A stretch of DNA of 34,929 nucleotides from Phycisphaeraceae bacterium. Its GTDB lineage: Bacteria > Planctomycetota > Phycisphaerae > Phycisphaerales > Phycisphaeraceae. The stretch is taken from assembly GCA_029260655.1 (NCBI GenBank), contig JAJDCU010000029.1, positions 1-34,929 on the forward strand, read 5' to 3'. The notes under the pieces are model-generated. The model saw only the letters and a list, made by a program, of their open reading frames with translations. It did no database searches and was not told where the DNA came from. A program made the position numbers and the translations under genes. Of this stretch, positions 4,901-5,912 are shown one piece after another (the stretch's first letter is position 1; the number at the start of each line of letters is the position of its first letter).

Positions 4901-5912
4901 GGTCGAACCCGGCGCAGAAGTCCTGGTACCAGGCGGTGGAGCCTATTGGGTGTTCGATGTTCGATGTTCGATGTTCGATGTCAGATTGAACATCGCACAT
5001 CGCAGATCGCACATCGCCGACCTGTTCGATCTTCACCACCGGGGCGTGGCTGGTCTTAAAGTCCAGCTCCAGCTCACACATCCCGGCGATCCGCAGCGTG
5101 TTCTCGCAGGCCTCGGTCCACTTACGGTGGTCCATCGCCGCGTACATCTGCGACGTGCTCTTGAGATAAAGCTGGGTCGGGTACTTCATCCGGCTCTCGT
5201 CGCTGACGAGCTTGCCGGTGGAGATGCAGCACAGCGCGTCGTGCGGGCCGTGGTCGTCTTCTAACAGGAAGTGTACGTCGTTGGTCGCCACACACCCGAT
5301 CCCAAGCCGGTCCGCCAGGTCCATCAGTTCGGGGTTGACCCGGTCCTGTTCGGGGATGTGCTTTTGCAGCTCGATGAAAAAACGGTCCGGGCCGAAGATC
5401 TCGAGATACGTCTCGGCGATTTCCTTGGCGCGCTTGCGGTCGTCCTTCATCAGCGCGCTGGGGATCTCCCCGCCCAGGCAGGCGCTGGTGCAGATTAGAC
5501 CGTCGCTGAATTGCTTAAGGACCTCCTTGTCGATCCTCGGCTTGTAGTAGAAGCCTTCGGTGTACGCGATCGACCCGAGCTTTAAGAGGTTGTTGTAGCC
5601 TTGATGGTTCTGCGCCAGCAGCAGCAGGTGGTACCCGCCGTCTTTCACCCCGGTGGTGGTCCGATTCTTTCGGGAGTCGGCGGCCATGTAGGCTTCGATC
5701 CCGATGATCGGCTTGACCCCGGCGGCGACGGCCTTTGAATAGAAGTCGACCGCCCCGAACAGGCAGCCGTGGTCCGTGATCGCGATCGCAGGCTGCTCCA
5801 GCTCCTTGGCTCGCTTGACCAGGTCCCCGGTCTTGCAGGCGCCATCCAGCAGCGAATACTGGCTATGTACGTGCAGGTGGACGAAAGGTTTGAGGTCGGT
5901 GCTCGGTGCCAT
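1962..5912 (-). CDS. dnaE: DNA polymerase III subunit alpha
   Basis: 1316 aa replicative polymerase catalytic subunit, clearly longer than the roughly 1160 aa of E. coli DnaE. The N-terminal PHP domain starts with FVHLHVHSQYSLLDG (His12, His14), followed by TDHG (47-49), GIEAYMA and ATNDVHF, so its metal-binding residues look intact, unlike in E. coli. The palm contains YPDIDIDI with the catalytic aspartates and a third acidic residue in LLKMDFLGLRTL. VKGVGEKAM is the helix-hairpin-helix, and residues about 1060-1120 (VIIGGMLTRVRP to IDTVVFPRTY) form the OB fold. Two low-complexity insertions keep the frame: residues about 298-321 (nt 4952-5018) and about 652-668 (nt 3910-3944), both made of 7-nt repeats. 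The start is the first ATG, before HLHVHS, with only a weak CAGGG upstream. The gene appears monocistronic. Confidence 0.97.
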   Translation of the reverse strand: MAPSTDLKPFVHLHVHSQYSLLDGACKTGDLVKRAKELEQPAIAITDHGCLFGAVDFYSKAVAAGVKPIIGIEAYMAADSRKNRTTTGVKDGGYHLLLLAQNHQGYNNLLKLGSIAYTEGFYYKPRIDKEVLKQFSDGLICTSACLGGEIPSALMKDDRKRAKEIAETYLEIFGPDRFFIELQKHIPEQDRVNPELMDLADRLGIGCVATNDVHFLLEDDHGPHDALCCISTGKLVSDESRMKYPTQLYLKSTSQMYAAMDHRKWTEACENTLRIAGMCELELDFKTSHAPVVKIEQVGDVRSAMCDVQSDIEHRTSNIEHPIGSTAWYQDFCAGFDLEPFDAINDQDTTAEDLKAQCDDALRKLCEAGLIWRYGEAGITDAIRARLDRELTILADKSISAYFLIVWDFVNEARRRGISANARGSGVGTMAGYVLGLSNACPVKYGLLFERFTDPDRSEYPDIDIDICQDGRQEILDYVRQKYGHVAQIITFGTLKARAAIRDVGRVMDVPLSEVDKICKLVGDGLGVTLDKALKQEPELRKLYDENPTHKRMIDTARRLEGLARHAGVHAAGVVLATQPLDNIIPLYQPPGTDQLVTQWDGPTVEKVGLLKMDFLGLRTLSIIERAKVLIKQTLDDATIRKSVASGLAGDKASESDPSNPKPQTPDPLDLDRLTYDNPNVLALFQRGETAGVFQFESGGMRNLLMAMKPDRLEDLIAANALYRPGPMKLIPNYNDRKHGREAVPKVNEIVDRLTKETYGIMVYQEQVMQVVNELGDIPLRSAYTLIKAISKKSKKIIDANRAQFIKGAGEKGVSEKQANDLFDLIYEFAGYGFNKSHSTGYAIVAYQTAYLKAFFPVQYMAALLTYESVSTDKVVEYIDECKRVRLPNGERGIRVGQPDINLSDTAFTVVYDKDEPHDPNHGHIRFGLSAVKGVGEKAMNAIIGVRDKDGPFTSLFDFCERVPLGTVNKATIEALIKCGSFDEIHGIESRAAMVDAMESAIQAGQRAAADRDSGQMNFFATPPDDPDGPADAPPPEPALPKTEPWSKPELLKHEKAVLGFYVSSHPMDEHRDELQCYSSCTISDVADLAAETQVIIGGMLTRVRPTLTRASGKKMAHLTIEDKTGPIDTVVFPRTYDVVAPMLEVDRIVFLKAKVDRKRETPQLLVDDVIPIERAAESLTRAVKIVLHDNTAPGEGSAFNGELTKLREVLRQAASRGQSRAEVILELHQQNKVVTLRLPSSMRVCIDQHLTHGITATLSQSGRGHATCELIGPVKINPDKAPSQLLHDPAQNVGQALAMTSSVQGEEVCASIDRY
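3910..3944. repeat. Heptanucleotide array inside dnaE (GGGTCTG type)
   Basis: Consecutive 7-nt units on the plus strand: GGGTCTG twice, GGGTTTG twice, then a degenerate AGGGATC. In the dnaE frame (minus strand) it encodes a Pro/Asp-rich stretch (PSNPKPQTPDP) in a palm loop just upstream of the conserved DNP...LFQRGETAGVFQ segment. Five units make 35 nt, so flanking bases must complete the in-frame insertion. Confidence 0.8.
4952..5018. repeat. Heptanucleotide array inside dnaE (GTTCGAT / CATCGCA type)
   Basis: Four perfect GTTCGAT units (4952-4979), a GTCAGAT variant, a TGAA junction, then CATCGCA, CATCGCA, GATCGCA and CATCGCC. The two halves are related as rough reverse complements (ATCGAAC versus ATCGCAC), so the array could fold back on itself. 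In the dnaE frame it encodes about 23 residues (MCDVQSDIEHRTSNIEH and flanks) between the PHP domain and the palm, a region normally joined by a short linker. Confidence 0.85.

Follow-up and report, generated by a model that had tools for sequence, protein, structure and literature searches.

What is a run of 7-nt repeats doing inside the gene of a replicative DNA polymerase, and where does it come from? We addressed this question in a 34,929-nt stretch of DNA (hereafter the window; contig G000:C29) belonging to the 3.52-Mb assembly of a Phycisphaeraceae bacterium (G000), where such a run lies within dnaE. The reading frame of this gene stays open across the array, and its 1316-residue product carries the Pfam domains PHP (residues 12-185), DNA_pol3_alpha (361-617) and DNA_pol3_finger (667-812) and matches PDB entry 2hpi with an E-value of 3.5e-239. 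An AlphaFold2 model of residues 1-1190 has a mean pLDDT of 86, and only three internal stretches fall below 50, i.e., 311-324 at the array (site 1), 649-662 at a second heptamer site (site 2), and 1021-1033. Both heptamer sites of dnaE are, in this model, disordered linkers. The initial annotation had read the array as the intrusion of a repeat into an essential gene, which tolerated it, a view that our results support and extend, as it contained neither the inverted-pair architecture nor the second dnaE site nor the replacement of units among relatives described below.

At site 1, Tandem Repeats Finder (TRF) recovered both blocks that had been annotated, the perfect GTTCGAT units (4.4 copies, consensus TGTTCGA) and the CATCGCA-type units that follow them (4.0 copies of ACATCGC at 90%). 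What did not hold is their description as a plain repeat array, as the units of the second block are those of GTGCGAT, itself a variant of GTTCGAT, in reverse complement, and the two blocks are the arms of a quasi-palindrome; a simple direct tandem array is thereby ruled out. The site folds better than its shuffled versions (z of -3.6 as RNA and -4.8 as DNA), and the window holds more two-unit matches (6 observed, 0.2 expected) and right-arm matches (6 observed, 1.1 expected) than it should. As a strict-threshold heptamer scan proved too blunt for degenerate arrays, we used a lag-7 score scan, in which site 1 ranked first among 12 segments found in 435 kb of G000; in the same sample, lags 5, 8 and 11 gave no segments and lags 10 and 13 gave two each. 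The shuffles and the comparison with other lags rule out a chance origin of the array. Three perfect GTTCGAT units occur at no other place in the G000 assembly. The unit, read as GATGTTC, is free of stops in every frame of both strands (DVRCSMF / EHRTSNI). A terminator scan detected no intrinsic terminator at the array, and no Rfam match, i.e., no known RNA family, was found in the window. The annotated gain of about 23 residues between the PHP and palm domains was right in number and location but is not a pure addition, as the 23 residues stand in place of a shorter linker (the shortest linkers of the order are ca. 12-15 residues shorter).

Table 1 Heptamer elements and their host gene in the window (coordinates refer to the forward strand; a dot marks elements without strand)
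Feature	Position	Strand	Basis
dnaE, DNA polymerase III alpha subunit, 1316 aa	1962..5912	-	uninterrupted frame, Pfam, PDB match
Site 2 linker, residues 646-668, palm-fingers; decayed heptamer element	3909..3977	.	hairpin z only -1.6; pLDDT <50 at 649-656 and 660-662
Site 2 arm, GGGTCTG/GGGTTTG x4.4, encodes SNPKPQTPDP	3910..3940	+	TRF, lag-7 scan
Site 2 partner-arm remnant, TCGGGTCTGG	3968..3977	-	comparison with G005 and G003
Site 1 heptamer hairpin, residues ~299-321, PHP-palm linker	4946..5017	.	lag-7 score 41, fold z, pLDDT <50 at 311-324
Site 1 arm A, GTTCGAT x4.4, perfect; 3' arm of dnaE mRNA, read ATCGAAC	4951..4981	+	TRF
Site 1 arm B, ACATCGC x4; 5' arm of dnaE mRNA, read GCGATGT	4990..5017	+	TRF
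Intergenic array TTAGCCA, starting in the TAG stop of gene 18418-18678	18676..18708	+	lag-7 scan
Intergenic array TAGGGTC, between two minus-strand genes	34073..34117	+	lag-7 scan

Site 2 is a worn copy of the same kind (Table 1), and at the corresponding place in G005 and G003 the (GGGTCTA)n arms are intact. The window also contains two intergenic arrays. TTAGCC-type arrays follow the stop codon of the syntenic gene in G005 and G002 as well (L203/L204, 15505-15543; L222, 15924-15977). The unit of the other array, TAGGGTC, contains stops and represents a type that is unreadable through a gene. Two further repeats of the window are not heptameric, a 13- and 26-nt tandem array at 10915-10982 (CCCCCCGGATGTA) and a 12-nt tandem repeat at 26438-26484 (GGGTCCGGGGGT, 3.9 copies).

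Beyond the window, similar arrays were mapped by pattern searches and sampled stretches in 61 genomes, mostly metagenome assemblies, and all genome-wide counts refer to these searches and samples. The degenerate unit GATGTKS matched 32 times in G000, at ca. 12 loci (none for the reversed control), and, as the initial annotation had proposed, the dozen or so other loci of the dnaE unit are nearly all intergenic. The arrays are dispersed and their units are specific to genomes: AGAGTCC has 108 matches in G032, four and one in two genomes and none in the other 58; ATCGGGT has 180 in G011 and 30 in G002; GGATGGC has 92 in G011, 55 in G018 and 14 in G002; and GGGTCTR, which is less specific given its notable reversed-control matches, has 177 in G003. 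When the unit found in a genome's own dnaE was searched, that genome ranked within the top five of the 61 in six cases (G000, G002, G003, G005, G011, and G032). The converse fails, as G041 is rich in GATGTKS yet its dnaE lacks an array. In array-rich genomes period 7 is prominent over other lags; no such period appeared in 80-kb samples of G008, G009, G010, G012, G035, G046 and G057. The architecture of site 1 recurs throughout. Among the fetched stretches, all 53 pairs of matching arrays that lie no more than 200 nt apart are inverted and none is direct, with a median loop of 35 nt, and in nearly all of them the arm that is richer in G comes first. For AGAGTCC, where G and C are balanced, the AGAGTCC arm constantly comes first, and paired matches in the unit searches show the same order.

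The placement of these elements was assessed near the fetched pattern matches, with simple gene calls based on codon usage; as the loci were picked by pattern, the sample is biased toward well-preserved copies. Of 44 non-coding elements, 27 have an edge within 15 nt past a stop codon, ca. 8.4 being expected, and T-runs flank 8 of the 22 two-armed non-coding elements, compared to 8% of control places. Together with a geometry like that of the Xanthomonas arrays, as described in the cited sections of PMC4692102, these figures speak for RNA hairpins that are selected after stop codons as transcript ends or mRNA stabilizers, the copies in genes such as dnaE being by-products of their spread. We regard this as a serious possibility, though not the one we would expect to hold, as 24 of 68 elements lie within predicted genes, where termination would harm, 14 of the 22 elements lack a T-run, and nothing resembling a terminator is present at the dnaE array itself. 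Part of the non-coding copies may nevertheless have become terminators. We also considered a preference for stop-free units and rejected it: heptamers with no stop on either strand make up about half of the total, so the stop-free units seen in genes may simply be survivors.

The only host gene in the initial annotation was dnaE; in-frame hairpins of the same design occur in a whole series of core genes, the hosts being identified by profile searches. They are found in LigA in G000 itself, in DnaA in G027, in PurL, DnaG, RecJ, MutS and a peptidyl-arginine/agmatine deiminase in G032, in SMC, a MiaA-type IPP transferase and a class-III aminotransferase in G018, and in SMC, UvrA, three aminoacyl-tRNA synthetases (LeuRS, ValRS, and ArgRS), ParA, a lipoyl ligase and a formyl transferase in G011. 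SMC is the clearest case of presence and absence, with linkers of 53 aa in G011 and 57 aa in G018, built from two different units, against 7 aa in the genus of the window. In LigA, G000, G004 and G005 carry an insert of the GATGTKS type; G002 and G003 have unrelated linkers there. Dispersed palindromes that sit in frame in genes recall the Rickettsia palindromic elements (PMC10969869) and could be taken for miniature elements moved by a transposase, of the MITE or REP/RAYT kind. We think this unlikely, as the elements have no conserved sequence or ends, their units are wholly different between genomes, and their length changes by 7-nt units; moreover, the Y1 transposase (PF01797) is encoded by 49 of the 61 genomes, both with and without arrays, and bears no visible relation to array content.

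The history of the two dnaE linkers is best seen among relatives. In an alignment of their DnaE proteins neither linker is constant across the order in length or in sequence, and their residues are unconserved even between sister species, so the normal conserved linker that the initial annotation had named as the counter-case is ruled out. At the DNA level, heptamer arrays, mostly as inverted pairs, occupy one or both linkers in G000-G005, G027, G032, G018 and G045, with units as different as GATGTKS, GGATGGC, ATCGGGT, GGATGTG, TTGGGGA, AGAGTCC, AAGTCCG, GGAGTGC and GGGTCTR; many relatives have no array there. In G011 both dnaE contigs (G011:C110 and G011:C149) end exactly within the ATCGGGT hairpin of site 2. 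Within a species the two arms match each other: scores of the 5' arm against the reverse complement of the 3' arm average 16.4, compared to 8.2 for arms of other species or sites. The observed sum was reached in none of 100,000 permutations (the species are related, and so do not count as independent events), and the matching also holds within single sites (p 0.0001 for site 1 and 0.0003 for site 2). The gene tree has the form (G000,(G002,(G001,(G004,(G003,G005))))), and G000, G004 and G005 have in common a site 1 element of the GATGTKS type that has drifted, with other elements in G001, G002 and G003. From this tree and the distribution of units among the six genomes we infer that site 1 has been rewritten several times. 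Other palindromic repeats were seen as well, i.e., CCTGCGGACTCAAGTCCGCAGG in a dnaE linker of G028, CCCTCTCCC-type repeats at site 2 of G049 and GCTCCGCCAGGAATGGCGGGGC at site 1 of G003, and the sites thus accept differing palindromic repeats. Separately, records labeled Vicinamibacteraceae, Holophagales and Acidimicrobiales contain Phycisphaerales-like dnaE genes, and their public labels may be wrong.

A hairpin is kept in the dnaE of at least seven genomes in spite of differing units, as would be anticipated if the insert served DnaE or its mRNA, e.g., in regulated translation or in the binding of a partner, and its structure were selected for this. Such a role seems very improbable to us, since peptide, length and unit differ even in sister species, many relatives manage with no array at this place, and unrelated genes bear the identical design. 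That these are ordinary, fast-evolving linkers of low complexity arisen by chance is hardly credible, as the variable length of both linkers throughout the order accords with it but period 7 is no codon period, the lag-7 signal of linkers appears in several array-rich genomes and is as a rule missing in array-free ones, and the hairpins have covarying arms.

We therefore consider it probable that the dnaE array belongs to a dispersed class of heptamer hairpins, made by slippage and template switching and tolerated at disordered linkers. In members of the class, a loop separates n copies of a 7-nt unit from n reverse-complement copies; they have a genome-specific unit and a constant arm order, are in excess after stop codons, occur in frame within genes, and have their units replaced between close relatives. 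Among the longer repeat units, heptamers are the commonest in many bacteria, and a link between slippage and the polymerase footprint has been proposed (cited sections of PMC4692102 and PMC4679880), while template switching is known to homogenize the arms of inverted repeats, including those in coding genes of yeast (PMC8604942). In the scheme that we propose, replication slippage in 7-nt steps would lengthen and shorten the arrays, and template switching inside the hairpin (quasipalindrome correction) would keep the arms matched; acting together, the two could yield growth by 7 nt, matched arms and a drifting unit. New units might arrive when copies elsewhere in the same genome recombine with a site or take part in ectopic template switching, and the genome-wide spread of one unit along with its replacement at old sites would presumably require a further step. 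The dnaE element would have no job in the protein and would persist because the two linkers between domains are disordered, the frame is kept and the unit is free of stops. Both the G-rich-first order and the retention of the two arms are stricter than drift suggests, which could point to selection on structure. Overall, the picture resembles a repeat process acting throughout the genome, by which disordered loops of essential proteins are rewritten again and again. Only tentatively, and with more doubt than confidence, do we put forward a stronger version, in which a replication-linked activity would write hairpins of the current unit both behind stop codons and within the disordered loops of core genes, always with the G-rich arm leading, and would overwrite older units in concert. 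Disordered protein loops would then be the product of a drive acting at the DNA level.

Such elements amount to a naturally occurring series: two loops of the replicative polymerase, along with loops of proteins that act in replication, repair and translation, were refilled repeatedly by unrelated peptides, and it is apparently DNA structure, rather than protein function, that dictates the sequence of the inserted peptide. The series allows tests of genome-wide repeat homogenization, of arm matching in hairpins and of the tolerance of essential proteins to insertions. There is also a practical side, as the inserts break metagenome assemblies (e.g., dnaE of G011) and core genes may consequently look split.

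In the literature searched we found no paper on such elements in planctomycetes, but they share traits with several systems described elsewhere. The closest are the dispersed 7-nt arrays of Xanthomonas (GGGAATC) and Nostoc (GGGGAYT), for which the cited sections of PMC4692102 report 70-75 convergent inverted pairs per Xanthomonas genome, a location near stop codons and sometimes in genes, and variability among relatives. The planctomycete arrays are likewise dispersed, paired in inverted orientation and placed beside stop codons. Those arrays were studied as G-quadruplexes built of a single unit (PMC4692102, same sections), and the units GATGTTC and GATGTGC, unlike theirs, lack GGG, which is present in the ATCGGGT of other genomes. 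In the stem P6b of the Nostoc tRNA-Leu intron both arms are built of 7-nt units, and the class of unit has been replaced repeatedly while the stem was kept (PMC4476775); dnaE and SMC are analogous in that the unit is replaced and the stem kept, but P6b belongs to a non-coding group I intron, whereas the dnaE element lies in a protein-coding frame and the window has no Rfam match. Rickettsia palindromic elements are tolerated in frame inside unrelated genes, as the planctomycete palindromes are, but they form families of ca. 150 bp with conserved sequence and peptide (reviewed in PMC10969869), and the planctomycete elements are heptamer arrays in which one and the same site holds different units and peptides in different species. 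The TAACTGA heptamers of Beggiatoaceae, also dispersed and mostly intergenic with few in ORFs, differ in being direct arrays of one fixed unit, located mostly before start codons and with stops in the forward unit (PMC4679880). The planctomycete elements thus have traits of the Xanthomonas arrays, of Nostoc P6b and of the Rickettsia elements, and are members of neither of the latter two. Compared to the Xanthomonas and Nostoc arrays as described in the cited part of PMC4692102, the replacement of units at fixed sites within genes and the set of core genes are planctomycete features. Taken singly, none of the three traits (heptamer arrays, inverted pairs, in-frame palindromes) is novel; what is new is their combination in core genes, together with the turnover of units at fixed sites.
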